Assembly: GCA_022113835.1 (NCBI GenBank)
Contig: JAILWY010000021.1
Coordinates: 10,788,001 to 10,852,000, forward strand
DNA from: Atopsyche davidsoni
Taxonomy: Eukaryota; Arthropoda; Insecta; Trichoptera; Hydrobiosidae
Direction of reading: 5' to 3'
DNA: 64,000 nt
The notes beneath the pieces are model-generated. The model was not told where the DNA came from and searched no databases. It was given only the letters and a program-made list of their open reading frames with translations. The position numbers and the translations under genes are program-made. This document shows, piece by piece, positions 25,613 through 56,652 of the stretch (the first letter of the stretch is position 1; each line of letters starts with the position of its first letter).

Positions 25613-25881
25613 ATCTTGTTGAGGGACAAGGCATTTGATTCGTGAAGATCCATTATTATAATGATAAAAGTACCTTTGTATTCTGTCTTCACTTTGAGTT
25701 TATTAAAATTATTTGCAGTTTATTAATTAATTGCAATTATTACTAGTTTCGACCCAATACACTGAGTCATCATCAGTTATGCATCTGATGATGACCCAGT
25801 GTATTGGGTCGAAACTAGTAATGCAAATAATTTTAATAAACTCAATGTGAAGACAAAATACAAAGGTACTTTTATCATTAT
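25613..25881 (-). mobile_element. Hammerhead-bearing foldback repeat, copy A
   Basis: Imperfect inverted arms (about 25,660-25,776 and 25,785-25,880) flank an 8-nt loop. The left arm has an extra ~18-nt insertion. Outside the left arm is the one-sided flank ending CTTGTTGAGGGACAAGGCAT, which in copies B and C sits on the right, so this copy is oppositely oriented. The arms carry sense and antisense versions of a hammerhead-like core. The architecture suggests a Penelope-like retroelement terminal-repeat fragment; this is inferred, as no reverse transcriptase is present. Confidence 0.7.
25780..25825 (+). ncRNA. Type-I hammerhead ribozyme-like motif, copy A
   Basis: Core CTGATGA at 25785-25791. 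Stem II is GACCCA (25793-25798) with TGGGTC (25805-25810) around a 6-nt loop. GAAA lies at 25811-25814. Stem III is AC/GT (25814-25815, 25818-25819) with a 2-nt loop. The predicted cleavage triplet is GTA, cutting after 25820. Stem I is TGCAT (25780-25784) with ATGCA (25821-25825). One extra U (25792) sits between the core and stem II, a departure from the textbook core that is shared by all copies. A two-base-pair stem III is known from Penelope-type hammerheads, which are thought to work as dimers. Activity untested. Confidence 0.65.
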
Positions 25882-27985
25882 TATATATAGAATATGTCAT
25901 ATTGTGTACTAAAATATTGAATATATTTTTAAATGAGCCAATGCAATTTTTTTAAATAAATTATCATGATAAATACAACAACAAAAAAAATCACAATTTA
26001 AAATACAGTGTATCAATATATCAACCAAACATTTTTTTTTTGTTTTGGAAAAGTAGTGTGGTTTTGAAAACAGTGATCCATAAAAAAAAATTGTAAATAT
26101 TTTTCTTAAATTCAATTAAATATAAAAGGTTTTTATATTTCGGTTGCGAATAATTATTTGCTTTAGTAAAGCAATGCTTATGTAAACTTTTACGATAGCA
26201 ATAGGACTTGAAATTTACATTGAATCGGTCTACATCAAATATTAAATAGAACTACATTTAAGATATCGATTTGTGTCAAAACTATCAGCATTGAAGTGAT
26301 TACTTTATGAACTAAGTTGTTAACATTAAATTTATAACCCTATTAGAACCAATTTAATTAATGTCTGTATTCGGTCTAATAATTAGAACAATAATCTCTC
26401 CGCAGTGCAAATTAGGAGGCGTTTATCGTCGTCTTGTGCACAACAGCACACCAAGTGGTGTGTCCAAGTAATTTAAAATGCTAGAGCGTCATTATAATTG
26501 CAAATTTATATACAAATACAATGCCAGAATGCAAAACAAAGAATAATATTTCCCCTCTGAAACTTTTCGCTAAAGCTCTCCGTATCTTGCTCAATTATTT
26601 CATACATTTGGAAACTTGTAAATAATGATTCTTGGATCGCTAGGTCGTTGCATAATTAATAGAAACCACTACAAGTCTCAGCTTCCTCAGCTTACGAGAG
26701 CTGGTGGTGGTAGCAGCGTCTAAGGGGAAGAAACAACCCCCATGCTCGCTGCCTCCTCGCGCCCTCCTACAGGCTACTTCCTGTTTTAATAATATTGCTG
26801 GGATCAGTTGCCCCAAACCCGTATTAGCGGATTATTTACTTAGAAAACTATTTCGAGGACTTTCCAGTTTACAGGGTCCCAACTTCTTATGGAACAACAT
26901 TTGGTCCCTTGGTATATTTATTAAATTTTTGACTGTGTAGTTCAGTTTTGTTTCAATGATTTTTAACATTCAATGTATCCGAGATGCAACAATAAATATT
27001 TATATATAACCATTACATTGTAAAAGCTTTATTCTATAGTATTATTTTAAGAGTTAACCTTCGGTCAATTTATAATTCATTGAGACACTTCTGGTTGAAA
27101 TAAATAAAATAGAATATAGAGCAACAATGAAGCAGAAAAAAGATGCTCAAAGTAATATCTCTAAAAAACACAAATATATTGATGAAAAAGGATATAGCAC
27201 TCTGGTGTTCTTTGAAAATACAAATATACAACTATAAAGGATATATTACTCTGAAAAAATACTTTTGTCGGCCCTAAAGCATCCTAAATCGATACCCTAG
27301 AAATGTAAAATTGGTAAAGTACCACTTAGAGATAAGAAAAATATATAAATGCCAGGAAATCATGTATCAAGTCAAGCAGAGAACTACCAGCCACAAATAA
27401 CAATGAAAAAAAATAAGCTCTACATTTATATATATGGTATTTCGAAGTTTTCGTATGAACTTTTTCCTACTATTGAATTAATCGATTTTGGTACCATTCT
27501 ACTTATGTTTTTTTTTTAACACTTAAATAATGCAAAAATATAAACTCTGTGCTATTTTAGGACGAGAAAAATATCCTCATAACTTTCACAATAATTTACA
27601 CATATGGATTCAATAACATTAATATTGAACATTTATTAGAAAAAAATATATATCTCACTCAAAATGAAGACAGTCGTCTTTTTTTCGAAGGCATCAAAAG
27701 TTCATTTTGTGTTTGCATACTTATAAACTGTAAATGTTGAACAACCCTGAAGATTAATTCAGTCAACCCTTTCAATAAAACTGTAAGAATAGCAAGTAGG
27801 TATCTATACCTGTTTTATATGGCACTGTCATATTCGCGAATGTTTTTGTCATTCCTTCTCTCGGCGCTCTTCTGTAAGTTTTATCGTTTACTATGACATT
27901 CAGTGGAATAAGAAAAGAAAGAAAATTTTATTACATTTCGTGTATAAAAAATTCACGGCAGTGCGTTACGGCTGCTCTAATGTAA

Positions 27986-28711
27986 AATAGACAACATTAT
28001 GGCTGTAGACCGTATTTTCCTGTATTCATCTGACTCACAGATCATATCGATTTCAACGTGTCTACTTTAAAATTCTATGCCCCTGAATGCTCTCAGCTGC
28101 TATCAAGAACCTCAAAAACAATTTAAGTATGTGCGAATAATGCTAAATAAAATAAAAGAGCCAAGGCTCTTAATCATCTCACTATAAACCAAGGTTTATA
28201 CGTAAAATTATATTTTTATATAGAAATAAACTTTTTAAAAAATGTATGGAAGTTAACTAACTAAGGGTGAACATCAAAACTCTTTTCAATAATTGCTCAT
28301 AGCCATTTAAGAAACGCTATATATTTTTCAAAAGCTATATGCTAAATTATTATAAAATAAAATATTGTAAATAAGATAATCAAATTATTCATATAGGCTA
28401 AATTAATTTGATTCACTCATCGCATCGATTGCTGTTTCCCTACCTTTGAATTATTTTCAATAATTTATTTCAGCCAGCTATAAAATGTTACACATATACC
28501 AAAAATCATACATTGGAGTGTTAATGTATTAGAATACAATTAATGAAACATTTTTAATACATATCGCGTTTCTCTTTATGTAGAATACACAATATAATGG
28601 TAATATAGTTCGTGTAGACTATATTCATCTGACTCTCTGATCGTATCGATCGCTACGTGCCTACCTTAAAATTCTTTTCACTGAAAGATCTCAGCCAACT
28701 ATCAAAGGCTT
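27986..28711. repeat. Locally repeated ~125-bp segment, three copies
   Basis: 27,986-28,112 and 28,582-28,711 share ATTCATCTGACTC, a degenerate ATCGTATCGAT, ACGTG(T/C)CTAC and TTAAAATTCT, then a CTCAGC(T/C)...CTATCAA end. A weaker, partial third copy lies at 28,409-28,486 (CATCGCATCGATTGC...TTCAGCCAGCTAT). All have the same orientation and are 170-425 bp apart, so the segment probably arose by local duplication. Confidence 0.6.
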
Positions 28712-29844
28712 CTTGAAATTCCAGAGTCTTTGAATAAAGCGATATGCTTTCGTGAAATTATCACATTCAAAGAGGAGGCACCTGTACAGTGCAAATAAAG
28801 GTTCTGTGCAATCCTTTCTCACACAGCAATATCTCGATAGAAAAGAGTTTAGCTGCCTGTATGTATTCAGGTAAAATATAACAGCTCTAGAACAGCATAC
28901 ATTTACATTTGATCAACTCGGTGTATCCTAAAAATTGGATGATTAAGAAAAATAAGTTTAGAAAAGTAATGCCGAGACGTCAAGACACCAACAGTAAATT
29001 TCAGATTTTTTGCTCAAAGCTGCTTCTTAGTTGAAAACGGCTATATTTTCTAAGCACTTATAAACTTTATTTACTTAAATTCAAACTCGCTTACTTTACG
29101 ACAAAGAACTGTGGCTTTTTTACTATCTCAAAAGCTACTACGAAAAATCCGCTAAACTTTACGGATAGCTTACAACGAACTCGTTGGAAGAACGGGCAGC
29201 ATAATAACGAGTCTAAAATGTTTTTATTTTACTTTACGCGTTACTATCATTTTAATCTTAAGTATAAATAAAACCAAGATACTCTCTCGGAAAAAGGTTT
29301 AGTTACGACTTACTCGGTACGTGCCAGATAAACCGAGCGCCGGTCCTCCCTCGCTCGCATCAGATTATGCAAGAAATATTTTGATATTTAAATTAAGCCA
29401 AGAACATTTTTAATAAAACTCGTTTTTAACGCCCCACTTTTATTTGAAAAGGAAAACCAAAGTCGAGTGATATTGTTTCAACTACATGAGGCCATTATAT
29501 TGTCTAAAATGAAATCCTGAAAAGGACCCTCTGGTTAAGATAAAATAGAAATGTTTCTCGCGCCTGAACGACAGCCAGTGTTTTTTTCCTTGACATTTTG
29601 AAGGAGATAAATGATGCTTCTCCGGGGTGGTGTTTGACTTCTCGACTGGGTCTATGTTGATGGAGAGATAAAAACTTGGACGGTCATGAAAACGAAACAT
29701 AAAATGTACACACAAAAAACTCTTCCTATAATAAACTTTTTAAAGAATATTTTCCAATACAGTTGGAAAGTCTCTATGATTTCCACAGCCTGCTATTATC
29801 TTTTTATACTGAAAGTATTACGGAAATACACGGAACATTAAGTT

Positions 29845-29995
29845 TGTTCGTAGGTTTTGTCACCCGTTGTTTTTAAATGATTTGGTTTTTTGGGTGTTCA
29901 GTGATGCTTGATGTTTTCAGTTTTTCTGCTTTTCAGTCCTCACAAATCTCCTAAAATGGTTCGAGCAGCTTAACACTCAGGAAACCAATTTATAC
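29845..29995. repeat. Foldback repeat, copy 2 (20.05-kb type)
   Basis: Shares TGTTCGTAGG(C/T)TTTG at the left and CTTAACACTCAGGAAACCAA at the right with the copy at 20,045. GATTTGGTTTTTTGGGTGTT near the left is nearly the inverse of the right end, giving a hairpin with a ~70-nt loop. Boundaries are approximate. Confidence 0.5.
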
Positions 29996-32900
29996 ATTTA
30001 ACATCATATGTATTAAAATGTGTGCTATATATGTTTTTTTACATTAATACAGATTTTGTTGACTATTTATGTAGTTTAATATTAGTAATACTTTGTTGAA
30101 ATGTTGTTCTTTAATGAAAATGTGCAAAGGGTCCCAAACTGCCGCATCTATCTTTTTCACGTATGGCATTGATTTTTAGGGACTCTTTCTCTATTCCGAG
30201 CATAAAGAGTGTCGGAATTGTAAAAACCATTTGTCAAGATGACACAGCTCTGAATTTATAATCCGAGGGGGATGGCCGGGCGGATCCCTTAAACCCAAAT
30301 CCCCGGATCCGATCATCATGGGGTTTGTCTGATTGACATTTTGGATTCAGGCAAACTGATACAGGTTTCGGGCCTACAAGGGTTTTCCGATACTTCTATC
30401 ACTTAAAACAGACAGTAGTACTTGAAAAATTCATTGAATTGATTTTCTTATACTTTGATTTAATTTAATTAAAATTATGGTATACCTTGTGTAATGAATA
30501 AACGTTTTTATTGACGGACATTTAAAAAAAGTCAAATATCGCTTTTTACAAACACGTTTACTAATCAACTAATATTAGTATTTAGGTCAGTAATAATTTA
30601 ACCTCCCAGTAATTATAAAAAAATATGGATCTTTCAATATCTAGCAAGTTTTTTTGATGTGTCACTGGTCTTCAATGAAGATTTAATGCTTTCACAAGAA
30701 GTAGAATAAACTACAATCTCAGTCAATATTATAAGTAGTGTATTTACATTATTCTGTATAATTTTACAGTCAATTATAATTTTTGAATTGAGCGTTTTTA
30801 GCTGAATAGGAAAAGACTAGTTTACTTTTTGTCTAAAAACCTTCTTTCATAATCTGTCAGGAAAGTACTTTATTATTAATTAATGTATATTGTTTACTGA
30901 CTAAAAGTGTTATACTTCAATGAAATTTGTTTATTTTATGAAAGGAATTTTACTAAACAAATATTATTAAATAAGTTTTTATACTTCTTGTTTTATCGAT
31001 AGACATCGCTGATGTATTTTCTTCCACCATTAATCAAACTTTCCAACGAAGAAAGTTTGAAAGTGTCACTTAAATTTCAATAAACTTCAATCAATTATGC
31101 ATTAGTATTTATTTGTAAAATGCAATTAATTTCGTGATTATCTACTCTGCAGAAATAGCGATACTATTATAGATTAATTGATTTGATCTAAATTACTTAC
31201 ACGTCGTAAACACCCCCTTTAATATCTTGCAAACGGCAAGAAGCCTTACTCCACCGAGCCAATTTCCCCAGCAGCCTCGCTATCTTCAGCCTCGGGGTGG
31301 GTTCGCCGTCAGACCATCAGATATCCGCCCACCTGAAATTTACTTAATGCTACCCATCCGTGTACGGGGAATTCTCACAACAGCCTTGAAATTCTTAGCA
31401 TTTTGCAGAGGGTTGTCACCAATTGCCGAAGTTAAGTAGGTGGTGCCTGTAAGGGTAGCTCCGGGTATGTTTGCGCTATGCTTTATTTAACGGCATAGAG
31501 ACGCTTCATACACTCAGAGAATGCTGAAATATTTACGCGAACGTCAGTATTATTTTTATTGCGCTCAGCATTATAGTCCTTATAATACGCTCCATAAATT
31601 TTACAACTTAATTTCAAAACTAGTAGTTGAAGTATGCAAAAAAAACTTTACTGCGTTAGCTTATGCATATAATGTTATATGCTCGAAAATAAACTGGAAT
31701 ATTTACATATTTCAATTGGCAATACGTCATGTTGAGCGTAAAAAAATGCTTGGTTATCGAGGTGCATCGAGGTTTTTCTAGTCTTTTTCTGTATTACAGG
31801 ATATGTATGTATACGTAGATAAAAATTTCGCATCTTTTCAAATATTCGCTGCACCAATTCCTACTCCAGCGCCACTACTCGTATATCTGAAAACACCTCC
31901 TTTCCCGCGCCTTCATCCAATTCATCCCCTAAGCTTCAATCCCATCACATCATGATCTGCTCCCCTCGCAGCCTCCTGTCATGTATCTAGCAGCCTTCCG
32001 CCTCTCGACAGATCAACTATAACACTAATTCCCCTGTTTCGGTTACTGCGAACTGAGGCAGTAGGAAATTAAAGTCAATATATAAGGACGACTCCGCCGT
32101 GGTTTGCTGTGAGTTTCCAGGATTTCACTTTGCACAAATTATTAGTTCTGATTTTCAGTGTAAATATAGGAAGTACGATAACATCGACACTAAAAACAAG
32201 TAATGATATATTCGTCATTTAATTAATTTAACAGAAGAGTAGTGTTAATTATCTTGATATTATTTTATAGTATGATAATTTTTAATCTTTAAAAGATATT
32301 ATTTTACACCACTGGTTTCGCCAACATGCTTGTTTGGCATATTTTGACAAGTCTCAGACAGATCTCTACATGTAGACGTAATTAAGCATGTATGCGAAAT
32401 TACATTTTTTTGTTGTATCTGTAGAACTTTAAAGTTATCATGAGAAATATTTTGTGATTAATGTGTTGTCATGTTTGTTTCTTGCTATTTTTTATAATAT
32501 ACGAAGTATGATGGCAGCCACAATTTTGCTACCCCAATGAATAAAAGTTTCCTACGGAGCATCTTCGTTAGTCGATCTGTGAAATCGCTATTTCTCACCT
32601 CACTGGTTCCTATCATATCCGGCTGAAATTCTCGATATTTATCCATCACTATGAACGGAGTACTTCTGAAAATTCTTTTAACATTTTTAGATGAAAAGAT
32701 TCCTTTAAGCCTTCTATTTCTTCAAATAGATAGACATTAGGAATGGGCCATCTTTCTACTTTTATACTATCGTTTTATTATTACCAATAAATATGTGGTG
32801 ATGGAATCAAATAAAAACTTTATGTACTTTTATAGTTTTTGTATACTTCTGCATTAAGTATTTTATAACAAAATTTAATTTTATAAAACTGAAGGGAAAA

Positions 32901-33874
32901 ATAAATGAGGCACTTTGCGAACACTACTTAAAGTTGTTATAAACGTTTATGCCTAGAATAAAGAGTCCGACACCGATAGGACCTTGTAATATTAAGCTTT
33001 TCTTGTAGACATTTAAGGTCTTAAAATTTTGTAAGTTGACATGCTTACATTTGCGTTTACAGAAATTAAAACAAAATACTTTATAAAGTGAAAAGAAACC
33101 ATTGAATAATTTTGCAAAAGCTTATAAAATAAATAAGAAAGAAGCTTAAGAGAAATGTTCAGTATAAAAGTAAAATGTTTTGGAGGGTAAAAATTTTTTT
33201 TTTTAAATAAAAGTTATTTGGATTATATGAATAATTTTCTGAGTATTCAGAAAAAAATGCGATTCATTTTTTGGCTTTATTGTCGATACGGCACGTACGG
33301 CGAGTCCGGATACGTGTGTGGCTTGCGTAGAATACCTCCATATATTACAAAGAGAGCGGAAAATTACAATGCCAGTTTTTAACTCTCTGAGATGAAAAAG
33401 GAACTTCGCGGATTAAAAATAAAGTTCGGGTCTCGAAAAAGAATTTCTGGAGTCAAAAAATAAGCGACGGTCGCTTGCCTCGTGCTCTTTCTGAGTATGA
33501 ATGCTGAAATTGTATTATTCTGTTTTGAGCAGTTTAAAAATAATCATGTGTCTAATTTTAGTTTTTTTATGCCAACAGGGGTGACATACATTCTTATATA
33601 CTTTGGGAACGTAGGTAGCAGTTGGAAGCGTGCATAGAAAACTGCGATTAGATACGTTTTCAGCACTTGCATTTTAAGAGAAAATCATAATGAACCTTCA
33701 TCGGTTCTTTTAAAGTTTTAACTCTATTTTTGTTTATGTTTGAACATAAAGCCTTTGAATAGATTTAATATTTGATTAAGAATTTGATACTTTATATGAG
33801 GCTTTATCTAATGCTTCGGGAAGAGATTTCGTTGATATTGAATCAGCAAACAGATTAAATTAATATAATAATAA

Positions 33875-34134
33875 CAGTAACTTTGTATTATCTTCACTTT
33901 GAGTTTATTAAATTTTTTGCATGCCTTTTTCGACCAAATAGACTAAGTCACCATCAGATGCATAACTAAATTAAACAGTTTAGTTGTGCATCTGATGATG
34001 ACCTAGTCTATTTGTTCGAAACTTTGTCATGCAAAAAATTTAATAAACTCAAAGTGAAGACAGAATACGATGTTACTTTTATCATTATAATAATGGATCT
34101 TCACCAATCAAATGCCTTGTCCCTCAACAAGATT
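33875..34134 (+). mobile_element. Hammerhead-bearing foldback repeat, copy B
   Basis: Inverted arms (about 33,875-33,966 and 33,983-34,080) contain CTTCACTTTGAGTTTATTAAA and its inverse. The right side continues with the one-sided flank GGATCTTCACC...CTCAACAAGAT (34,096-34,134) shared with copies A and C. The left arm's antisense core is decayed (CTGATGG in place of CTGATGA). The right arm holds the better motif. Confidence 0.7.
33987..34033 (+). ncRNA. Type-I hammerhead ribozyme-like motif, copy B
   Basis: CTGATGA at 33992-33998, an extra U at 33999, stem II from GACC (34000) to GTTC (34017) with one mismatch, and GAAA at 34018-34021. Stem III is AC/GT with a TTT loop. The cleavage triplet is GTC, cutting after 34028. 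Stem I is TGCAT (33987-33991) with ATGCA (34029-34033), fully paired. The opposite arm preserves GGTC where this one reads GTTC, so the stem II mismatch is a later mutation. Confidence 0.6.
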
Positions 34135-37100
34135 AAATTAAAACTAGATTTTTTTTATTAAGATATATGACAACTTTATATGATGTTTCTTCAACACATA
34201 AGATAATATTAAAATATTCAATTTGTAATATACTTGCGAAAATATCTCAGTGCCTCACGCTGAAGGTTATTCAAATATATTACAAAAAACTTTATTACTG
34301 AAATATTTTCGCGTCAACGTTTTTACATGTTTTCGGTGCTCTTACCTTGAAAATCAAAAACAAAGTTACTTTGTTTGAATATTTTCTTTAACTAAAAAGT
34401 GTTTTACTAATATTGGGTTAATTTTATTTTTGAAAAGTAGCGAAGAAGCGTGCGCCTGACGCTGGGAGGCGGAGCAGGAGGCTGTACCCGGGGGTGATTG
34501 ATTATATGGGATTAAAAATACTTCTAAGGCTGTATAATGTTCTCACTTCAGGGTATTCTGATTTATTTTAGCGCCGCTCAGTAGAATTAGAAAAGCAGAC
34601 CAAATCGTCTGTTACACTACCTGCGGTAATTAGTTTTTGATTAAATATTTGTTTTAGTTTTAGCTCATGCATTAAATACCTCGTACGGTCACAATAATTT
34701 TGCAAATTTGTGTTGTCTACGTGATGTAATTAGGCACAAAATATGCACAAACATGCCACAGGCCGGGTGACCTAAAGTCGACGTAAGCTCGACAAATATA
34801 CCAACAATAATTAACATAATTTTTTTTAAAACTATATTTTTATTTTTGCTACACTGTGATTGTGCAATTATTTTGACTATTATAGTTTTGCAATAACAAT
34901 GAAATTTATGTACAAGTTTTTCGTGCTACCTGGGCAATTAGATCGCTCAGTTTATAATTAGTATTCTATATTGCAAATGAATTGAACTAATAGAGTGTCA
35001 AAAAAGTATTTTAAAAAATTCAATTAAATATTAAAATTATCCACTATTAAGTACTGCTTCTTTGTAGCAGGTAAAAAAAACCTAATACTGACAAAATATA
35101 GACAAATTAAATTACTTTGAATTTTTATAACTCTATTTCTGCGTAATGGCCACATATTTTTTTTAAAAAACTACGCTTGAAATATGCAACATTTTATCGT
35201 GTTTGTCGCGTTCGTGTGTAAACGTGCTCAACTGCATTTACATTGAGAAATGTGCAGCCATTAAAATGAGAACTGAAATTTGATTTTGAATCAACCACGT
35301 CAGTTGTGGACTGCAAATGTACAACGACTTTATTCAGAAAATAGCCATTGCATTTATGTGCAACTTGTTCGACAGTATCAGACACAGAACGGTTCTGCTG
35401 CCAATCAGAATTGACGTTAACTTCCTGTGTAATACAATATGTATGGGATTAATAGAAACTTGAATCCACGGCTGTTTAAATATGTAATATTTGATATTTA
35501 AACAAGTATGAATACACTGATATCAAAGAGATACATTAATATTTGTGAAAGCTCAACTTTTGTTAACTAAATCTGATTAAATCTCTTTGAAGTATTACAA
35601 TCATTTAAATAGTGAGAACTTTCGCCTTTTAATGGTTTCGTTTTCGTTTAAAACCAAAAATGCTCATTAACAAAATAACTCAAAAAGCCAAGTCATTTAA
35701 TTATTAACATTTTTTTTTATACATGAAGTAGCAATAAATGATAAAAATGTTGAATAAATTGTCTAAATAAATAATCAAATTTTAAAATAATTTGTTGCTT
35801 TGTATAAAGTTTTTTTTATGGAAATACACTTCATGGATGAATGAATTCAATGCAATTCTGACGATTTCATTTTTATTATGTGGCAAAATTTGTGAAGTCT
35901 ACCAAAGCCTTGCAAAAGCTCCACTTGAGAGGGTATAAGCCTGCTTGAAGCTGCCTTTTGAAGTGCAGGGGAGTATGTTGTACGGTCAGTGAGTTATTTG
36001 CCATATTAGAAATTAAATATCTTTTGGGGAATTAATTTGTTTTAAGACATTCCAGCTGAGATAATTTGGTAGGATCGTGATATTGGGTATTATGCCGCAT
36101 TACATATAAATTTATTTTAATTTAGAGTACATTTATAACGAACGCACCTCTCCAAATGTGTTCGCAGGTCATAGCGACCATTATCAATATAAATATTTAT
36201 TTTCAGTCATCAATCACTTACGTGGTCACCTTTTAAGATTTTTTTACCACTTTAACCCACAGATAGTTTATGAAATTCGCAGAATCTTAAAAACAATATT
36301 AAGTAGAATTCATTTTAATATACCGTATTCTTCTGGCCTAATGAGAATAAATTAAGGACCAATACCCTATTGGAATAGGGTGGAAGATCAGGATGAGAGA
36401 TAATTTGACAATCGATGGAGTTCTTTGTTTAATAATGACTCATTAATTATAATGATACCAATAACGAAGACAATATAGGTTCGTGATTTTCTCTTATAGA
36501 ATAAATGAACCGAGAAAAACGTAAGAAACAATATGACATAGACGTTTTTAAAACAACATTACATTTCCAGAGTAAATCTGCTGTAAGTATGGAAATGAAA
36601 ATTTTAATTAGGTTTTGATAAAAAACGCACATAAATTATTGACTTATTTGATATTTACAAATAATTCGCATTTATAACTATAAAGGTTTATTGTAAATGC
36701 AATATTTAGGTAATAAGGAGAAAAATCTTTATTAGTTTTTCAGAAAAGTTAGAAATTAGAATTTATTGAAAATTTTATTTTTAATTTCAAAAATCCTTCA
36801 TTGGGTATTTAACAAATATGCACATTAAAATAAAGTTTATCGCAAGATTATTTTTAATTTTACAGTAAATTCGTAGTTTCATGGGATTTTTTTAATCAAT
36901 ATACTGTTTTTTTTATGCCAGCGTAGAATACTTAAATTCACAGGTTATGATTGATTTCAATTAAAATATATATTAAAATTGTTTATCATATATAAGTAAG
37001 TTTTTGCTTCATGATCATAAATATTCCTGCAATCAAATTCTAATTGAATACCTTGTAGACCACGATTTGTGTGCGATACCGATTAATTACCTGGCATGAC

Positions 37101-38329
37101 ACATGCAAATCGCACACTTGACAGGTAATGCATCAGCAGCCAGGCGCCGATGAAATGACATAAGAAGGATGGCTTTGACTATGGAATTGAAAAAGCACTA
37201 CACACGTCGTGACACAACCGACAACCGACCAAATTACAACAAAAAATGCCAATAGCTACTTTTTATGATATTCCCACTAACGCTATTTATGGTTTTTTCA
37301 ATATTATTCATCATCGTGAAAATATATTTTTACAAATCGTTTTCCACACAAACAATGCATGTTTAATTTTTTTCTATAAAATCAAACGTTTTAGTCATTT
37401 TAAAAACATTGAAATAATAGTATAAATGAACATGTTTTTAGATTGACTAATTGAATGTTAATCGAACTGGAATATTCAGGTTGACATCACACTGATAGTT
37501 AACTAGATTTTAGGTCAAAGCAAAAAAATATCAAAGAACGTCAATATAAAAAAATTCCACGTCAAATAAGCTTGAAATAACATATTCCACGGAGAAAATA
37601 TAAAATTCATGTAATACAATTTACCTTTTCTAGTCGACAGTGCTTTCGTTATAAGTCTGCATTTAAAAGAGTTGAAATCTTTGAGTCATTTGGAAATTCA
37701 TACTCGTCGTAACCGTTCGCAAAAGACAAAAGATCCACACAGTGAAAAACTAGAATGTAAACGCTCTACCCTAGAAGAGTTGAGGGCTTCTAGAATAGAA
37801 ACATACCTGGAGTAAAACATCCGCTGATTGTACTTCAGAAAATGTCTGGTCTGAAGGTAAAAACGAGTCCTACTTTGATATTAAACAAGAAGTTTCTAAA
37901 TAAATAAAAAATACATACTTTGCTTATTATAGACGTTGACCCATATATTATAGTATATTCGTATTTGATGTTCATTTTATATATTTTTAATCATAGCCTA
38001 ATAATTTATATCTTTATGAATCATTATAGAGATGTATCCTGGGCTGTTGATATGTGAGTAAAATCCTTTATCCAAACATACTGTGCGATCGCCGTGAGCA
38101 AAGAGGTGAACCCTCGACTCAGGGTTCATGAGGGTGTCTGTCCCAGTTGAAGTTGGCTTCCTGCCAAGGATTGTCTCGCTAATCTGCAACCACTAACTCA
38201 TTTACATCCTGGTTGCGATCTTCTGGTGGGGATCGCAAGGACACTGAAACCATCGGCATGCGGAATCAGCTAGACTTCCTTTGAAAACCATACGTAAAAT
38301 TGTAGTACCAATAATATGAATGATACGAT
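34135..38329. other. AT-rich non-coding DNA
   Basis: No exon, RNA gene or family repeat was recognised. Small GC-richer patches occur near 34,440-34,490, 37,050-37,200 and 38,040-38,270. The last may be the decayed 5' flank of the mariner remnant that follows. Confidence 0.5.
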
Positions 38330-38975
38330 ACAAGATACGAGAGACGTTGAAAGGCGATTTTGCATTTCGGAAATGCTACTTGAACGCCACAAAAAAAGTC
38401 ATTTTTGCATCGTATCATCACTGGTGATGAAAAATGGATTCGCTACGACAACCTGAAGCGTAAAAAATCATGGGGTAAGCCCGGACATGTATTAACATCG
38501 ACGTCAGGCCAAATATTCATGGCGCCAAGGTAATGCTGTGTAGTTGGTGGGATCAGAAGGGTGTCATGCATTGTGAGCTGCTGAAACCGGGCCAAACTAT
38601 CACGGGCGAATTCTACAGACAACAATTGATGCGTTTGATGCCAGAATATGCGATCAGGCACGAGTCTGTAATTTTCCATCATGACAATGCTCGGCCACAT
38701 ATTGCTAAATCTGTAAAAACCTATTTGGAAAACAGAGGATGAGAAGTTCTGCCTCACCCGCCTTATAGCCCAGACCTTGCCCCTTACGACTACCACTTGT
38801 TTCAATCGATGCAGAATGCCCTTTCTGGAATACGCTTCACTTCTGAACAGGGTATCAAAAATTGGCTTGATTCTTTCTTGGCTTCAAAAGACGTACAGTT
38901 CTTTTGAGATGGAATCCATGATTTGCCCGAAATATGGGAAAATGTAGTGGCTAGCGATGGACATGAATAGTCAAA
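38330..38975 (+). pseudogene. Mariner transposase remnant (D,D34D type)
   Basis: In order: 'TGDEKWIRYDN' (about 38,420-38,450, first catalytic Asp), 'MLCSWWDQKGV' (38,533), 'LLKPGQTITGEFY', 'HHDNARPHIAK' (second Asp, near 38,680), 'VLPHPPYSPDLAPYDYHLF' (third Asp, near 38,790) and 'LPEIWENVVASDGH' (to about 38,970). Counting from the second to the third Asp gives 34 residues, the mariner spacing. A frameshift near 38,515, an in-frame TGA at 38,740 in place of a Trp codon, and another TGA near 38,906 break it, and the N-terminus is missing. Its protein differs clearly from the 19-kb mariner, so two lineages are present. It lies just downstream of the receptor exon, in the opposite orientation. 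Confidence 0.92.
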
Positions 38976-39042
38976 TCTTGGTTGATATTAGCAGGAAAAT
39001 TTGAATCTCTTAAGCTAGGGCTGGGATGTTCTGCAGACTCAC

Positions 39043-39363
39043 CACGTCGATGAGCTGCGACAGCTTGAGCTTGATGCAGACGCGCAGCACGTCAGTGGTG
39101 TTGACGACCGGGCGCACGAGCTTGTTGTAGTTGCTGAGCAGGTCGTCGTAGAGGCGCTTGGCGTCGGGGTTGCCGGCCACTGCGGCCTGCGCCACCAGCG
39201 CGCTCAGCAACCAGGCGCGCAGCACCCCTGCAGACAGCCTCTGCGCCCGCAGCCGGAAGCGCGCCACCTGCGCCACCTGCGCCACCCGCGCCACCGGAAA
39301 CTCCATCTCCCCAAATTCAAACACCGAGTCGACGTATCCCATACTCTCCCCAACGAATACCAT
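39043..39363 (-). CDS. Nicotinic acetylcholine receptor alpha subunit, 5' coding exon (alpha4-like)
   Basis: Encodes the start of a cation-conducting synaptic acetylcholine receptor subunit. The conceptual product has a basic/hydrophobic leader ([18 protein letters not shown]) followed by '[19 protein letters not shown]' and '[19 protein letters not shown]', ending 'SQLIDV', the conserved N-terminal alpha helix and beta1 region of insect alpha subunits. The KLVRPVVN...[11 protein letters not shown] pattern fits alpha4 best from memory. NTT is a glycosylation sequon. The exon ends at a textbook donor (GACGTG|GTGAGT, intron from 39,042), exactly where insect receptor genes are interrupted before the NLKNQ exon. 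An in-frame TGA precedes the first ATG (39,363). Met at 39,306 (MEFPV...) has better context and is my preferred start. The leader has a VAQVAQVAR tandem repeat. The remaining exons were not found in the window. Confidence 0.85.
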
Positions 39364-40098
39364 TCACAATACTCACTGCGCTCCGTTTAATTATTTATTG
39401 CGTTGAAACATTATTTTAGCACATACAAAAATATAATCGCGCGTTTACTTCGGCTTGCAATCTCGCAATTATGTAGTATTTAATGTCATAACTTTGTTAC
39501 CCGATAAACTCGCGGCGAGCGCTCTCGGCGGCGGTGTGAATTTATTATCCCGTACTTATACTACTTATACATATAAAAAAAAAATAAAAAAACAACGTTA
39601 TCCTAGTTTTATGTACATCATTTAGAATATAGCTTTATTTCGTCGGGCCATCGGCGCGTAAATGAACTTTTTTTTTTTTTTTTTAATAACCACTACGTAT
39701 TAACGGCTACGGGACCACTAGCTCGAGCTCGAGGATCGCTCGACTATGAACGATCGCTACTGCAAGGAGAGGCGAGCGCCCCGGAGGCTTCAGGGGCGGG
39801 GGCGGGGGCGGGGGCGGCGGGGGCGAGCCCGCGGGTTACGTAAGCGCCAGGAGAGAGTCCTGGCGGCAGGCGGACCCGCGTGGCCCCGTGACCCCGATGC
39901 GCTCCCCACATAACGCAGCCTCGGCCCCCCGGCGGAACTCCTTCTTCTACCCCCGTCTTTTTCTCTAATCCCTTCAACCTCCTTTTGTACAAGTTTTTTT
40001 ACAATTTTTTCCGCAACTTTGCATATTTTCACATTTTCGAACTTTTATATATATATATATATATTACATATACTCAATGCAACAACGTTTTCAGTTTC

Positions 40099-40129
<31 letters not shown>

Positions 40130-40639
40130 TTCACGTTTAGATTTCAACTCAGCGATCGATCATTTGGACTATCAACATTTGCAACAACAACAAAAAACAT
40201 TCGAAACACAGAATTGTTAGTAACGTATTATTGAATAAAGTGTTTTTTTTTTATTTATTTTTTATGATTTTGCACGATCACAGTGATGAAAAGTTTGCGT
40301 TGCACCCTCAAGGAAAACTGTTGTACGTTTTTTTTGCTTGTCGGGGAGCAGCCTCGCGCCTTTTGGGAAATTTGAAAAAGCAGCCGGCGTCACTGGCTGG
40401 CGGTGTCGGGTCGGCTATGGCGGGGCGCGGGGGCGAGCGGACGCCATCCCCGACCGTCGAGGATCTGCCGGCGGAGGTTTTTGAATTCGAAAGTTGGCGG
40501 GTAGGGGTGAGGTGCGAGCCTCGGTGGTGGAGCGCCTGACGTCCCCTCGCGGCGGCGGCCACAGCGCGACTGGGCCCGCCCCCGCCGCGCCCGCGCGCTC
40601 GCCCTCCCGCCCCGGTCATCCCCGGGATGAACTTATGAA
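39364..40639 (-). promoter_or_regulatory. GC-rich upstream region of the receptor gene
   Basis: Directly upstream (minus sense) of the receptor start codons. Two GC-rich islands (about 39,720-39,960 and 40,380-40,625) contain a run of GGGGCG repeats at 39,793-39,827, giving G-quadruplex potential and Sp1/KLF-type sites. Between them lie (TA)n microsatellites (about 40,045-40,070 and 40,100-40,126). Apparent open frames of 60-150 codons in the islands are Pro/Arg/Gly-rich artefacts of GC content. The transcription start could not be placed. Confidence 0.5.
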
Positions 40640-42370
40640 TTTGAATGCCCAGATAAAGGATCTCTGCCCAAATTAGTATGCTGAAATAAGGGTAGATTTT
40701 TACGCATACCATTGTTAAGAAAAAAAAACCTTCTCTGCCAATCAACAACAACGTACCGTATATCATCACTATCTAGCCCTCTACACAGATAAATACATAT
40801 TTGGCGTATATATATATTTTATGTCAAAATTCAAGCTTCATGCTAGCTATACATATTTTATATAAATTTAAGTTCCGAGTTTAAGGACGTCTATCTAAAT
40901 TAATATGTGTAAATTTTTTCGCATACCATTGTTAAGAAAAAAAAACCTTCTCTGCCAATCAACAACGTACCGTATATCATCACTATCCAGCCCTCTACAC
41001 AGATAAATACATATTTGACGTATATATATTTTATATGCCAAAATTCAAGCCTCATGCTATAGCTTTATATTTTATATAAATTTAAGTTCCCAGTTTAAGG
41101 ACCTCTGTATTAATTAATATGCTAAAATAAAGGTAGATTTTCACGCATACCAGTGCTAAGAAAAAAAAAACCTTCTCTGCTAATCAACAACGTACTGTAT
41201 ATCATCACTATCCAGCCCTCTACACAGATAAATACATATTTGACGTATATATACTTTATATGCCAAAATTCAAGCCTCATGCTATAGCTATATATTTTAT
41301 ATAAATTTACGTTCCCAGTTTAAGGACGTCTATCTAAATTAATATGCTGAAATATGTGTAAATTTTTCCGCATACCATTGTTAAGAAATAAAAACCTTCT
41401 CTGCCAATCAACAACGTACCGTATATCATCACTATCCAGCCCTCTACACAGATAAATACATATTTGACGTATATATATTTTATATGCCAAAATTCAAGCC
41501 TCATGCTATAGCTTTATATTTTATATAAATTTAAGTTCCCAGTTTAAGGATCTCTGTATTAATTAATATGCTAAAATAAGGGTAGATTTTTACGCATACC
41601 AGTGCTAAGAAAAAAAAAACTTCTCTGCTAATCAACAACTTACCGTATATCATCACTATCCAGCCCTCTACACAGATAAATACATATTTGACGTATATAT
41701 ATATTTTATATGCCAATATTCAAGCCTCATGCTAAAGCTATATATTTTATATAAATTTAAGTTCCCAGTTTAAGGACCTCTGTCTCAATTAATATGCTAA
41801 AATAAGGGTAGATTTTTCCGCATACCATTGTTAAAAAAAAAAAACTTCTCTGCCAATCGAAAACAACGTGCCGTATATCAACACTGATAATCACTATCCA
41901 AACCTCTACACAGATAAACAAAAAGAAACATTTTCATTTTAGTATATTTGACGTATATATATTGTATACGTCCGTAGCTAAAGATTTATTTTCACCCCTT
42001 GCCAAAATTCAACCCTCATGCAATAGAATAGCTAAATCAATTTTTTTAAATTTAAGTTCCCAGTTTAAGGACATCTGTCTTAATCAATATGCTAAAATAA
42101 GGGTAGATTTTTCCGCATAAAAACACTGATAATAATTAACAAGCCCCCTTCACAAACAAACAAAAAGTAACACATTGAAAATAATTCTGATTGTATTATA
42201 TTTGACGTATATGTATGTTATACGTCCGTAGCTATAAATTTATTCTTAACCTTGGCCAAAATTCAAACCTTACGTAATAGCTTTATCATTTTTTTTTTAT
42301 TTAAATGTTCAGTTTGAAGACCTAAAATTAGTATGCCAAAATAAGGGTAAAATTTTAAAATACAATTAAT
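40640..42370. repeat. ~223-bp tandem satellite array, about 7.5 units
   Basis: The GCATACCA landmark recurs at about 40,703, 40,921, 41,143, 41,370, 41,593 and 41,820, and as a decayed GCATAAAA at 42,114, giving spacings of 218-227 and one of ~294. Each unit has CCTTCTCTGCCAATCAAC, CCGTATATCATCACTATCC, CAGCCCTCTACACAGATAAA, TTGACGTATATATA and AAGTTCCCAGTTTAAGGAC. Units at the far end (42,000-42,370) are diverged or interrupted. No unit encodes a protein. Confidence 0.92.
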
Positions 42371-42625: not shown

Positions 42626-43307
42626 TTAATTGGTTATTATATTAATTTAGATTAATGTCAATCAGAATGCGTTTTTATTTACCCATGCAGGTATTAGTAT
42701 GTTTATGTGATTAAGCACATTTTTTCATACATTGAAAACGATTAAAGAAAACTCTCAGAAAATATCATCGTGACTTGTGAGGGATTCGAACCCACATCCC
42801 CAAGCTTTCATGGCCGGTGCAATCCCTCACAAGTCACGATGATATTTTCTGAGAGTTTTCTTTAATCGTTTTCAATGTATGAAAAAATGTGCTTAATCAC
42901 ATAAACATACTAATACCTGCATGGGTAAATAAAAACGCATTCTGATTGACATTAATCTAAATTAATATAATTGAATGGTGCGCGACTCGGCTAAACATCA
43001 ATAGATTTTAAAAATAATAATAACCAGATTTGGATATAAAAATGCTTCACTTGTTACTTTAATTAAAAAGTCCAGTGTTTGCAAATCATTAAATATTGAT
43101 TAGCCCGAGCATATTAGTTCATATGTAGAATATGATTATCAAAAATTCTCACTAAATTGCAGTGGCTTGTTAGCATAGTTGGATAAATGCACCGGCCATG
43201 AAAGCTTGGGGATGTGGGTTCGAATCCCTCACAAGTCACGATGATATTTTCTGAGAGTTTTCTTTAATCGTTTTCAATGTATGAAAAAATGTGCTTAATT
43301 GGTTATT
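42626..43307 (-). mobile_element. Composite inverted SINE insertion with 13-bp TSD
   Basis: TTAATTGGTTATT occurs at 42626-42638 and 43295-43307. Between them, 42636-42786 and 42821-42971 are 151-nt inverted arms with no mismatch that I found, around a 34-nt loop holding a fragment of the antisense tRNA-like region. A sense full head (from GGTGCGCGACTCGGC, 42,977), a tRNA-like region (A box TTAGCATAGTTGG, B box GGTTCGAATCCC near 43,218) and a tail cut at GTGC follow. The tail-to-head junction equals that of the 10-kb insertion, so both derive from one composite source or mechanism. Confidence 0.88.
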
Positions 43308-51085: not shown

Positions 51086-51174
51086 CTGGAATTACATTTG
51101 CGAAATCATCAAACTTGTTCATGGTTTTCAAGCGTGATACAGTAACCGTGCTTATGTGGTATGTTACTGCCTAC

Positions 51175-51929: not shown

Positions 51930-52479
51930 TGAATTATTTTTATGCAAACGATTATTTTTAATGTTTCACCGAACGTTTTATTTAAAATTGTAGATTGTAG
52001 ATTCGTTAGCATCATGATTGTCTATTATTGAGACGTGAAGGTCATCCGCATTGCAAACAAAGTCGCAACGGAGAGACTATCTTGTAGCGTCTCCCTGCAT
52101 TTGTATCAACATATGATTATACTTTGAATTATTTTAATTGATATTCACCCCTGAGTAATTAGGCCAGATTCTTGTCACTTTGAGTAATGTTCTGTTGCAT
52201 GTTACAGTTATCCGTAAGATAAAACTCAATGTTTAGCAACTGGAACATCACTAAGTAACTGTCAAGAATCACTATTACGAGGCATATTTATTTTTATAAT
52301 TTCAAAATATTTATTATTTAATCTTCTTTTCAAAAAAAATGGGTGACTAATCCCTGACCTTTTGCTGACCTGAGCTTTTGCTGAGTAATATTTATGTGTA
52401 AGAATTGAATTAATTTATTTTTTATGTGTTATTTTTAGTGACTATTTTGATTATCTATCGGTCGTCTCGGTTCAAAAAG

Positions 52480-52672
52480 TTATATCTGTGATGGTGTGTA
52501 AGATGTGGTTGGATCGATGGGGGCACGACCGTGGGTGGCGACAGGCATGGGGCGTTGGGGGCCCGGCATGGCGTATCCCGTGATCTCGCCCCCGTCGTAC
52601 TCCACCTCGGCATCGCTGCGGGACCCAGCTTCCTTCCCATAGTGCCGGTAAACATCTTCCAGTGTTGCCGTT
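52480..52672 (-). CDS. Unrecognised secreted protein gene, third exon (with stop)
   Basis: Acceptor ATTTTCAG before 52,672. The first base completes the Lys codon split from exon 2. The peptide is TATLEDVYRHYGKEAGSRSD, AEVEYDGGEITGYAMPGPQR and PMPVATHGRAPIDPTTSYTP followed by SQI, ending at an in-frame TAA (52,480-52,482). If this is a true 3' end, exons 1-3 make a 222-residue secreted protein. If the gene continues, the only phase-compatible donors (about 52,530, G|GTCGTG or C|GTGCCC) are poor. GC content is high, and antisense frames here are shadows. Confidence 0.7.
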
Positions 52673-52849
52673 CTGAAAATATCAGTTATTTCTATTTCAA
52701 GTTTTGGATGGCCAGTGTACTAACAATCAAGGAATTTACACATGTTTTCTCAATATATGGGCACACTACCACCTCAGCCACCATGACTGGGCGCGCAAGA
52801 AGAGATAACATTTTGTTAACTGTATAGGCTACTATGTAAATATTTTAAG

Positions 52850-53145
52850 TACAGTAAAACCTCGATATAACGGACTTCGGATATAACGGACAAAAATCCG
52901 GTTAAATGTAAAAAATTCGTAATTCTATTATAAAAAAATAGCAGCCTTCAAAAGTGCAAGCAATAGTTGATTACCGAAAGCAAACGCGTCAATATCAATC
53001 AGCAACGTCTTTCACGACAAGTGTCCGAAGACAATTAAATACAATTTGCTTTGTGTTTTGTATTTTGTATTTATATCTAAATACGTACAGTGAATTTTTA
53101 CACCGCCTCCCCCCAATTGGTCCGTTATATCGTGGTTTTACTGTA
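52850..53145. mobile_element. pogo/Tigger-type miniature element
   Basis: TA at 52850-52851 and 53144-53145 is the target duplication. The ends CAGTAAAACCTCGATATAAC and its inverse (GTTATATCGTGGTTTTACTG) form ~24-bp terminal inverted repeats differing at one position, the pogo/Tigger end type. Inside, 'KVQAIVDYRKQTRQYQSATS' (about 52,950-53,010) is reminiscent of the CENP-B-like N-terminal region of pogo transposases but is too short to be sure. It lies in the second intron of the minus-strand gene. Confidence 0.85.
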
Positions 53146-53314
53146 TTCACAAACAAAATTTTTCATAATTTTTAGCCGGTTTGCTATGAAATATTATACA
53201 TTAAACCGATATTCTGATATATATAGAAAATTTTGCTGCGTAGTATGGCCAATCTGGTATTTTTACAATGAGTGTATTGTGTCGTATGAATATTAGTGAA
53301 ATTGTTATCATTAC

Positions 53315-53545
53315 TTTGAAAGCCAGTCCCTGTAGCTGGACGAGCCGGGATCCGACAACAGGTTTTCCTTGACGTCACTCAGGTCTACGAGTGATTTCCG
53401 GAGATCCGAGGGTATTGAAGGTTTGTTTCTCTCCTGTGACTTGGTGAATGGCTTGCCAACCCTGTGCGCCAGCAGGGGTCTCTGCATTTGTGATATTATT
53501 TCATCTGCCACGAAATTACGGCATAGATACTCGTTTAGCATCTTT
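53315..53545 (-). CDS. Unrecognised secreted protein gene, second exon
   Basis: Acceptor TTGTTCGCAG before 53,545; donor CAAA|GTAATG at 53,314; 231 nt. It completes Arg-82 and encodes 'KMLNEYLCRNFVADEIISQM', 'QRPLLAHRVGKPFTKSQERN', 'KPSIPSDLRKSLVDLSDVKE' and NLLSDPGSSSYRDWLSK. The charged amphipathic character suggests helices, and there is one cysteine. No domain recognised. Both intron phases fit exons 1 and 3. Confidence 0.8.
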
Positions 53546-54325
53546 CTGCGAACAACGCAACATTATTAACTGCAAACAGTATACAACTATACTTATCAAT
53601 AGATTTCACTTCTAACTGTATGTTTGAAATCCTCATAGTGTTTCCATACAAATTATATTATATTTAACGCATGATTGACATACAGTGATCATACAAAAAT
53701 TCATACATTGTAAAAAAAATGCCGTTAATAATTTTTTTTTAAGAAAAATCACACTTATTTTGTATATTTATATATTATATTAGTATTTAATATTAAGAAT
53801 AAAATGTGATTGTTTGTGAAAATTGAATAGTGCAGTGTATTATTACATATATGGCTTTTAAGTTTTTGCTTACACTTTTAATATAACTTTCAAATAATTA
53901 TATTGATAAATCTACATATATAAATTTTTTGAAGGAACAAGTTCAAAACTAAACAGTATAGTCAGTTAAGAGATATCCAGAGCTTTATATCGTAACTTAA
54001 CTATATATTTTTTGATATATTAAAATATTAAACAATACTTCTCTGTTTATTAGGTATTTTTATTTCGTTAGAATAAAAATTATATAAATAATGTCTTTTA
54101 ATATTCTAAACAATTATATATACAAATTGATGCATCTATGGCTTTAATGGCATTTAACAAAAACAAATACTTTTGATAAAACCGGTTACATTAAAAAATA
54201 ATAATAATGTGGATCTGCTTGTTGAAATTTCAATATGCACACAAACTTTCCACTGCACACCACAGATTTAAACATAACACCCTAAACACGTGTCGACTTG
54301 CATAAAAAAAAATCTATAAAGTTAC

Positions 54326-54570
54326 CTGTGAAATCCCATAGTCGTATATGCGTCATCCCACGACCCATTAAAACTCAATGGACGCCGTTTAAAATTCTCC
54401 CTCGTAACATTATTCCAAGGCGTCCTTGAAACCGGACCTTCCACCATGAGCAAAGAGCTGGGCATCAAATCTGCCCGAAGTATGTCATCAGCGTCGAGCA
54501 TGTCCTCGTAGCGGAACGAGTACGAAACCACAAACAAAACAGGAACCACGAAACAAATCAATGCATTCAT
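54326..54570 (-). CDS. Unrecognised secreted protein gene, first coding exon with signal peptide
   Basis: ATG at 54,570 opens 'MNALICFVVPVLFVVSYSFR', a clear signal peptide with likely cleavage after SYS. 'YEDMLDADDILRADLMPSSL' and 'LMVEGPVSRTPWNNVTRENF' follow, with sequons NVT and NGS and a KRR basic site. The donor is ACAG|GTAAC at 54,325, two bases into Arg-82. A good acceptor-like sequence (CTTTCTTCAG, about 54,633-54,642) lies ~65 bp upstream of the ATG, so a further 5' non-coding exon is possible. The neighbouring gene upstream is divergent, at 62.8 kb. Confidence 0.82.
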
Positions 54571-56519
54571 AATTATTAATAATTTTTTTCTATGAATTAA
54601 ATTGTGAGAATGCTGAAAGACGTGTCTCTCTGAAGAAAGGCTCCAGACTGGCTGTGCATGTCTCCATGCGGCAGTAGTCGAAGGCTCTAGAGGTAAGATG
54701 TTCCGGTCGCAGCCTGTCGCGGTTCAGCTGCACCGTTGTGTCGTCTTTTGTCAGTTTGTATGAATAACTGAACGCTTCTGCACTTGTGATCTACTTCACA
54801 TCTCAAATGTGGTTCAACAACAACGCGTCACTGATATACCGTACATACATATAATAAACTATTAAAATACATTTTGATGCTGGCATTGATTTTGTGATTA
54901 TTAAAGCAACCTACACACATTATAATACAACCGATAATCGATCGTTGATTTAGCTAAAGCAATCACTTTTGTGTGTAGACCACTCAAGTGATACAAGAGA
55001 TTCTTAATACTAACTTAATAACAAAATATATATTTTTGAATTTAAGTCACGTTAAGAAAAAAAATCAAAACGATTATATTAACATTTTGTAGTTCTGAAT
55101 TTATTATGAATAGGTTTTTCGTTTATAAGGTGTGTTTTAATTGACGTGTTTTGTACGTGTGTTTATCTAGTATAGTACACATGCATGTAACGATTCGGAT
55201 TCTCGCTTAACTAAATGGTTACTGTTGTCGATAGAATAAACCGAGAAGTAATTCTGATAATAAAATTTCACTTTTGTTCTACTAATATACGATTTTTTAC
55301 ACCGTTTATATTTTTCTTAAATATTGAATCTGAATATATAAGATGTTTGTAGTTACTTGTTTACTAAATTTTGCATGTATTTTGTGCGATATTTGATTTT
55401 CACCAGTTGTGATATTTTTTAACGGAGTTTCTCCATGTCAAAAATTGGAGTACTTTGAATCTCCTTAATAGCTCTAGGAGCCATTATTTCTGTACTCCGG
55501 TGTTTTGCGCCAGTTTTTTTGGTAGTATATCATGATTTAAATAATATATAACAAGTGTGCACAAATGTGCACACGACAGAGTTAATAATATGATTTCAAA
55601 AAATGTAAATAACCTTTGTATCAATAACAGTAAGAACTCATAATACAATATTTGTAACAACCAACAAAGCGCTGAGAATTCCATCATCGGAACCGGGAAA
55701 GCTTTTACTGAAATATATCACCAGGACCCGAGAATACCTGAAAAGCGATGTCTGAAAGCTCCAGTGAATACAGGGAGGGAGGGAGGGAGGGTTTATGGCG
55801 AGGAATGGCAGCCATTTCGCGTGCGGCGCTCCCGTAAGGCTTTATGTGGAGTGTCAGCCTCTCGGGCCCGCAGCCATTTTATATTCGTAACAACCTTTTC
55901 AGGCCTTTATCTGTATTTTGGTATACTTTATTTATTAAGCGTCCTTGTTTATTGCGCGTTATTTTTATATTGTTATATAATTTGTGTCTAACGACGTGGT
56001 ATAAAACTTTCAAGTGTTTTTTTTTTTTTTATGTGGAATATTTTTTTAGCACTCTTTACAAAGCGTGCACGTTAAACTTTTCTCACGTAAATTGAGCTAT
56101 TCGTGTTACGCCTTTTTGATAACATAATTTTTAAACTAAAAGCATATCAATAAATAAACTTAGGAAATAAATAAAATTCCTCTAAAGTGAACGCTATTTG
56201 ACTAGATTACCAATCATGTAGAATATGCGTAGTCCGGACTATGAATTAGATAATTTAAGTCATTATTGGATTTTCTTACTAAGTTTCATGTACAAAAAAA
56301 CTTAATGTATGATATCAGTACATAAAAATACTTTTAAAAAATAGAATACGATTATTAAAATATTTTTTTAAATACCTGCAACAAATATACATAATTGAAT
56401 AATTATATGCCTGCAATAATAATTGCATAAATAAGTAAGCCAATTTACACGTAAATAAAAAAAAGATTACTACGAATATATATTAACGTGTGTCAATGTA
56501 TAGATTACCTCTTAATGAT
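54571..56519. other. 5' side of the minus-strand gene; AT-rich with a G-rich patch
   Basis: 54,600-54,790 is GC-richer and may hold the core promoter of the minus-strand gene (TCAGTTATTC, an initiator-like sequence, and a CAGCTG E-box in minus sense). GGGAGGGAGGGAGGG at 55,773-55,791 is a G-quadruplex-forming run next to a GC-rich block to ~55,880. No exon was recognised. Confidence 0.4.
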
Positions 56520-56561
56520 ATGGGATAACTTTTTATAATTTCTTCACGTTGAGTTTATTTT

Positions 56562-56606
56562 AACATGACCAGTTTCAACCAACAGACTAGGTCATCATCA
56601 GATGCA
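56562..56606 (-). ncRNA. Hammerhead ribozyme-like motif on the opposite strand, copy C
   Basis: On the minus strand: CTGATGA (56,601-56,595), an extra U, stem II GACC...GGTT (four pairs including one G-U), GAAA (56,576-56,573), stem III AC/GT with a TG loop, and a GTC cleavage triplet ending at 56,567. Stem I has about three to four pairs. It is slightly weaker than its plus-strand partner. Confidence 0.5.
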
Positions 56607-56607
56607 G

Positions 56608-56652
56608 AACATCTGATGATGACCAAATTCTTTGGTTGAAACTAATCATGTT
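56608..56652 (+). ncRNA. Type-I hammerhead ribozyme-like motif, copy C
   Basis: CTGATGA at 56613-56619 and an extra U at 56620. Stem II is GACCAAA (56621-56627) with TTTGGTT (56631-56637), loop TTC. GAAA lies at 56638-56641. Stem III is reduced by one mismatch (AC/AT), with cleavage predicted after C56647 (ATC). Stem I is AACAT (56608-56612) with ATGTT (56648-56652). Stem I differs in sequence from copies A and B yet pairs completely, and stem II differs from copy A yet pairs. Confidence 0.6.

Follow-up and report, generated by a model that had tools for sequence, protein, structure and literature searches.

Minimal hammerhead ribozymes of Penelope-like elements (PLEs; Cervera and de la Pena 2014; Lunse et al. 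2017) are described, in a review (PMC7761336), as type I motifs with a minimal stem III, located in pseudo-long terminal repeats (pLTRs), dispersed in thousands of copies and thought to cleave as dimers; their role is termed unknown or a mystery there. The same kind of motif is found in a stretch of 64,000 nt from Atopsyche davidsoni (contig JAILWY010000021.1, positions 10,788,001 to 10,852,000), in the following called the window, at three loci A, B and C which we assign with high confidence to PLE-derived insertions with a hammerhead motif. Judged from the sequence, each locus is a short insertion without open reading frame (ORF), in which two pLTR copies stand head to head, each with a predicted minimal type I hammerhead. 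In comparison to the described form, one additional U follows the CUGAUGA core, and the dispersed copies are shown here as pLTR palindromes with one tail. Ribozyme and element are of known kinds; less known is the record of insertion in a population of one-tailed palindromes.

Penelope of Adineta vaga shares the inverted pLTRs, one of them with a 31-bp tail, and a pLTR reaching into the ORF. Its target-site duplications measure 8–10 bp, compared to repeats of 10–12 bp here, and the accessible part of that report (PMC3846280) presents it at low copy number, with no mention of a hammerhead and no description of an ORF-less palindrome population. The Poseidon element of Anolis carolinensis (PAc, PMC11167929) has, as here, a pLTR hammerhead shortly before the ORF, internal start sites of reverse transcription and a tail between two such sites; both target strands are cleaved and extended in PAc. 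The PAc ORF begins at stem II, whereas the ORF here begins at the tail, about 90 nt later. In vitro the start site of PAc did not differ between the strands, whereas exactly one end is tailed here. Animal non-LTR retrozymes resemble the copies here in being short, in having no ORF and in carrying type I hammerheads; according to PMC7229834 they form direct tandem units with mostly canonical hammerheads, in contrast to the inverted pairs and the minimal form found here.

Insertions A, B and C are near-perfect head-to-head palindromes, each with target-site repeats of 10–12 bp. Brought into a common orientation, they run from a tail-less left arm through a short centre into the right arm and on to a tail of 39 nt, which starts with ATGGATCTTCAC, ends with CCCTCAACAAG and occurs at one end of each palindrome only. 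In our own reading the tails translate to MDLHESNALSLNK (A), MDLHQSNALSLNK (B) and MDLHQTNALSLNK (C). The target-site repeats measure 12 bp in A, 12 bp in B, where they overlap the tail end by 2 nt, and 10 bp in C. An 18-nt period at 25697–25735 is the sole tandem repeat at the three loci. The PLE copies of the window have no ORF, and 9 of the 12 window ORFs of at least 120 aa gave no match in Pfam. In window positions, the parts are:

25603–25614, no strand: insertion A, target-site repeat 1 (AGAATATGTCAT), 12-bp flank match
25615–25653, minus strand: insertion A, tail, corresponding to the first 13 codons of the PLE ORF by comparison with the ORF start
25654–25885, no strand: insertion A, palindrome of two pLTR arms, head to head (inverted repeats I8, I12)
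25889–25900, no strand: insertion A, target-site repeat 2, 12-bp flank match
33852–33863, no strand: insertion B, target-site repeat 1 (AGATTAAATTAA), 12-bp flank match
33864–34092, no strand: insertion B, palindrome of two pLTR arms (inverted repeat I13 at 33891–34060; arm matches 33861–34097)
34093–34131, plus strand: insertion B, tail, by tail sequence
34130–34141, no strand: insertion B, target-site repeat 2, 12-bp flank match
56499–56508, no strand: insertion C, target-site repeat 1 (TATAGATTAC), 10-bp flank match
56512–56702, no strand: insertion C, palindrome with 93-nt arms separated by 5 nt (inverted repeat I7)
56709–56747, plus strand: insertion C, tail, by tail sequence
56750–56759, no strand: insertion C, target-site repeat 2, 10-bp flank match

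A motif search of the window located CTGATGA..GAAA cores beginning at 25785, 33992 and 56613 on the plus strand as well as minus-strand cores at 25776, 33957 and 56601, which the sequence-only reading had overlooked. With a CTGATG[AG]...GAAA core in either arm of all three palindromes, there are six hammerhead copies and not three. The core CUGANGA plus GAA is kept in five of the six, the exception being B− with CTGATGG. A covariance model (R1), trained on 17 segments all from outside the window, returned the six copies as strong matches (E 1.8e-20 to 1.3e-9; next best, E 0.068):

25776–25829, plus strand: hammerhead A+ (copy A of the sequence-only reading), minimal type I, R1 E 1.8e-20
25737–25785, minus strand: hammerhead A−, opposite arm of A, R1 E 1.3e-9
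33914–33966, minus strand: hammerhead B−, left arm of B, core CTGATGG, R1 E 4e-12
33983–34037, plus strand: hammerhead B+ (copy B), R1 E 4.5e-15
56558–56610, minus strand: hammerhead C−, left arm of C, R1 E 1.3e-17
56604–56656, plus strand: hammerhead C+ (copy C), AACAT strand made at the arm junction, R1 E 1.4e-13

A descriptor of stems I, II and III, composed post hoc after the motifs had been seen, matched A+, C+ and C− in the window, compared to a mean of 0.005 matches in 400 dinucleotide shuffles; B fails. All three stems are intact in A+, stem I is gone in A−, two stem II pairs are broken in B+, and stem III of C+ reads ACTAAT with one broken pair; A+ and B+ keep AC..GT. The hammerhead layout that had been claimed for 25,780, 33,987 and 56,608 is present at all three places, with the reservation of the broken pairs in stem III of C+ and stem II of B+. 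In most segments compared the stem III region is the self-complementary ACTAGT, which would suit cleavage as a dimer; such cleavage is described for PLE hammerheads in PMC7761336. By their layout the three motifs are genuine minimal type I hammerheads of the kind known from PLE ends, with presumed ribozyme activity.

The pairing of the stems was evaluated in 22 of 31 distinct hammerhead segments. There, 92.0% of the cells are paired, compared to at most 44.0% in slid controls, and the covariation score of 0.173 (0.124 in shuffles) was reached by none of 500 shuffles. Without the window sequences, the remaining 17 segments gave 92.3% paired cells and a score of 0.154 versus 0.113, reached by 3 of 500 shuffles. 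Stem II pair 5 covaries among the 22 sequences (A-U 8, C-G 5, U-A 4, unpaired 5). The claim of paired changes in stem II is thus genuine at pair 5, but compensatory changes are chiefly limited to that pair. For stem I, where AACAT/ATGTT in copy C had been taken for a compensatory change, the claim had to be given up: the AACAT strand of C is located where the palindrome arms meet, and the opposite arm of C has TGCAT facing the same ATGTT. Genome-wide, AACATCTGATGATGACC (AACAT) has 20 exact copies compared to 2,030 of TGCATCTGATGATGACC (TGCAT), with backward controls at 0, so that the variant is rejected as covariation and regarded as a product of the arm junction.

The connection to PLEs was followed in the genome of 370.7 Mb in 80 contigs. 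A search for GIY-YIG gave 122 matches, 35 of them above the family cut-off, and the hammerhead string is found in 26 of the 30 best loci (L031–L060). Locus L035 carries the string of copy A, gttatgcat through ATGCAAA, and L056 is similar to copy B. Locus L062 of family 1 has an intact ORF of 810 aa, which starts with MDLHHANALSLNN at its tail and contains the domains RVT_1 (2.4e-10) and GIY-YIG (3.5e-5); in the ORF of L078 the values are 4.6e-15 and 0.0051, the latter under the GIY-YIG cut-off. The reverse transcriptase with GIY-YIG domain, which had been proposed as a search target near other copies, thus occurs in PLEs with one ORF, for example L062. Since the L062 ORF starts at its tail and many database relatives of the protein start alike (MDFRKVTPDSIN or MDFHQVT), the tail is assigned to the first 13 codons. 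An exact 20-mer of the tail has 1,234 copies in the genome (backward control 0). A similarity search with the PLE protein gave relatives from Parnassius, Euphydryas and Phthorimaea, all near 40% identity; a sequence search of the PDB returned no relative at E 0.001, and a viral-contig scan with a 22-nt tail string found nothing.

As the PLEs of this genome bear the same kind of hammerhead in their pLTRs, and their tail is closely similar to the window tails and matches the ORF start of L062, the suggested terminal-repeat origin from a Penelope-like element is confirmed. Instead of ragged remnants, the copies are ORF-less palindromic insertions with target-site repeats. Inverted arms plus flanking repeats would also be expected from a palindromic foldback DNA transposon, similar to miniature inverted-repeat elements, with an accidental hammerhead layout. 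Arms and tail are, however, identical with PLE pLTRs and ORF start, the tail is one-ended and stem II covaries, which makes a DNA transposon very improbable.

Beyond the window, palindrome C as query gave 90 matches, and 40 of 2,181 first-look candidates were scored. The resulting sample of 34 short palindromes was chosen by likeness to C; in addition, 20 large head-to-head insertions (5 of family 1, 15 of family 2) were picked as adjacent minus/plus GIY-YIG pairs. All 20 large insertions have the tail at exactly one outer end, internal tails being the ORF starts of further units. Of the short palindromes 29 have one tail, two have two and three have none; after removal of two partial duplicates, one tail is found in 29 of 32 (P ~1e-6 versus a fair coin). 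This tally used a wider tail pattern than the centre scoring, where the narrower pattern labelled some palindromes as tail-less. Among the first 100 listed places of the hammerhead 17-mer there are 16 head-to-head pairs within 400 nt. Among the first 100 listed places of the tail 20-mer, none are paired head to head at a distance of up to 600 nt; the single close pair of tails, at G000:C1:3201641 and 3201969, stands tail to tail. A published count of tails per palindrome was not found in the open-access literature searched. Target-site repeats of at least 9 nt flank 14 of 24 palindromes, compared to 10.7% with swapped flanks; 4 of these 14 lie more than 25 nt from the arm end. In the large insertions, 11–18 nt are common to both flanks in 18 of 18, counted without a control.

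The same palindromes might arise by self-priming, in which a single PLE cDNA folds back and serves as its own template. This route is discussed for Penelope elements of rotifers; PMC3846280 proposes it from inverted repeats with junction palindromes. Self-copying would give the same allele in both arms, as observed in 14 of 14 family 2 copies. It predicts equal outer ends, however, yet exactly one tail is present in the large and nearly all short insertions. Further, in several palindromes the tail-less arm has about 15 central nt that are absent from the tailed arm, and neither arm could have copied both these and the outer end from the other. We consider self-priming rather unlikely, although it is the strongest of the alternatives.

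Palindrome centres could be scored, with both cores found, in 21 of the 34 palindromes. A cap-like AGTTT precedes the core by about 15 nt. In our counts, arm ends never reach more than 2 nt past this string, and in 18 of 21 palindromes one or both arms end no more than 3 nt away from it, where one pair of palindromes shares an arm. The scores rest on typed yardstick strings, and a second CTGA at the junction may raise them by a few nt. AGTTT follows TATTTAAG by 32 nt in the 3' region of family 1 copies, a TATA-like spacing, and may represent the mRNA cap site. The 68 arms of the 34 palindromes start at or upstream of the core in 56 cases, between core and cut in 8, within 3 model positions of the cut in 1 and beyond it in 3. 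Ribozyme-cut templates as the rule were rejected on these counts; the ribozyme was thus retained in most templates, which agrees with the observation that ribozyme mutants of PAc still inserted (PMC11167929). Sampling by likeness to palindrome C may under-represent arms that start at the cut site. Small circular hammerhead RNAs copied in trans, as in animal non-LTR retrozymes, have in their favour that type I hammerheads are known in short, low-GC, repeated elements (PMC7229834). Retrozymes are direct tandem repeats of 150–450 bp, whereas the copies here are inverted pairs; their ends coincide with the PLE ORF start and, for the most part, with positions upstream of the core rather than with the ribozyme cut, and a PLE ORF carries the same sequence. 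A retrozyme origin is accordingly very improbable.

The arms of one insertion agree with each other. In 14 family 2 copies, arm-to-arm substitutions over about 600 nt number 0 in twelve, 1 in one and 2 in one, and at a site split 7:7 among these copies both arms have the same allele in 14 of 14. Subfamily type agrees between the arms in 18 of 19 classifiable short palindromes (about 5 expected), with 15 of the 34 left unclassified. One RNA copied twice, presumably one per insertion, explains this agreement.

From these data we favour, as somewhat better supported than not, a mechanism with two priming sites on two strands. The PLE mRNA would start at the presumed cap site, about 15 nt before the hammerhead core. 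The PLE enzyme would cut both target strands and begin reverse transcription within the RNA near the ORF start. Priming on one strand would use an outer site at about codon 13 and so produce the tail; priming on the other strand, presumably in this order, would use an inner site at about the start codon and produce none. Both cDNAs would extend to the nearby RNA 5' end and then probably be joined, often at a few matching bases. Where priming takes place within the first of the mRNA's pLTRs, copying would cover no more than about 150 nt per side, resulting in short palindromes. The one-tail rule, the alleles shared between arms and the kept ribozyme fit a priming of both strands at two different start sites, with RNA that was mostly uncut as template. 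More tentatively, and with somewhat less than even confidence, the dispersed minimal hammerheads of animal genomes could largely be "strong-stop" PLE insertions, in which one mostly uncut mRNA is copied twice in a fixed outer/inner order, onto both strands of a single cut target, and the palindrome centre marks the mRNA 5' end.

Several results weigh against this picture or parts of it. Rfam gave no hammerhead match in a scan of the whole window (E up to 5) and none when short segments around A and C were scanned separately (E up to 10), B being covered by the whole-window scan only; the Rfam check that had been proposed for the window thus remained negative. Rfam also misses the PLE loci L035, L056 and L061 although these carry the motif; its models therefore do not cover this hammerhead form, and their silence refutes nothing. 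L070, included in the same scan, belongs to family 2 and lacks the motif. Pairs with both sides changed number 3 compared to 2.7 in shuffles (331 of 500), and further pair types 7 compared to 9.1 (499 of 500). As neither count shows an excess, the support from covariation comes from a small number of positions, above all pair 5 of stem II. Two two-tailed palindromes and a tail-less one are exceptions among the 32 short palindromes. One arm, at L030, starts no more than 3 model positions from the cut; in our reading it may be a deletion between two TGCAT repeats. The in vitro start site of PAc, alike on both strands (PMC11167929), speaks against a strict ordering. Family 2, without a hammerhead recognised by R1, forms the same one-tailed inverted structure, and the hammerhead is therefore not needed for palindromes; R1 found nothing at 15 family 2 loci except one edge-clipped match at the L078 margin, outside the insertion. 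Family 2 copies differ from one another by a mean of 0.94 substitutions, with zero in 58 of 182 comparisons, and due to this similarity identical arms carry little power beyond the 7:7 site. Lineage bursts, gene conversion or self-priming could also make arms agree.

Further observations concern these PLEs and the rest of the window. The family 2 PLE at L076 has at about 5061–5095 a distant hammerhead-like string, CTTGAAGATGCCGTGTTCGGCGAAAGAGCTCTCGC, with the self-complementary AGAGCTCT at the place of stem III and without C3, possibly a decayed or altered hammerhead. At L078 (3772–3787), two PLE ORFs of 816 aa are arranged head to head, their start codons separated by 14 nt, in a near-perfect 5.5-kb palindrome centred on the ORF start and not on the cap-like site. 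Several palindrome arms are clustered side by side at L016 (1043–1696), L023 (1494–1804) and L027 (1501–1881), perhaps nested or tandem insertions. Six matches to the tRNA model above the Rfam cut-off lie in the window at 8677–8750, 9985–10072, 10509–10583, 22415–22487, 43164–43238 and 57848–57920, several of them in long inverted repeats (9850–10313, 42636–42971, 57639–58093); they are probably tRNA-derived short interspersed elements, some in inverted pairs. At 7208–7328 an inverted repeat of 56 nt, nearly perfect and closed by a loop of 9 nt, has several sub-threshold microRNA-model matches, and a tandem array at 40634–41885 (224-nt unit, 5.6 copies) adjoins a GC-rich stretch (48% at 38001–40000).

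The insertions seem to record how PLEs copy themselves into the genome. The nearly strict one-tail rule of the samples, not predicted by the in vitro results on PAc, the sharing of alleles between arms and the retained ribozyme are testable constraints on PLE integration, a poorly understood process. If the proposed origin is true, the genome would be readable as a primer-extension experiment on PLE integration.

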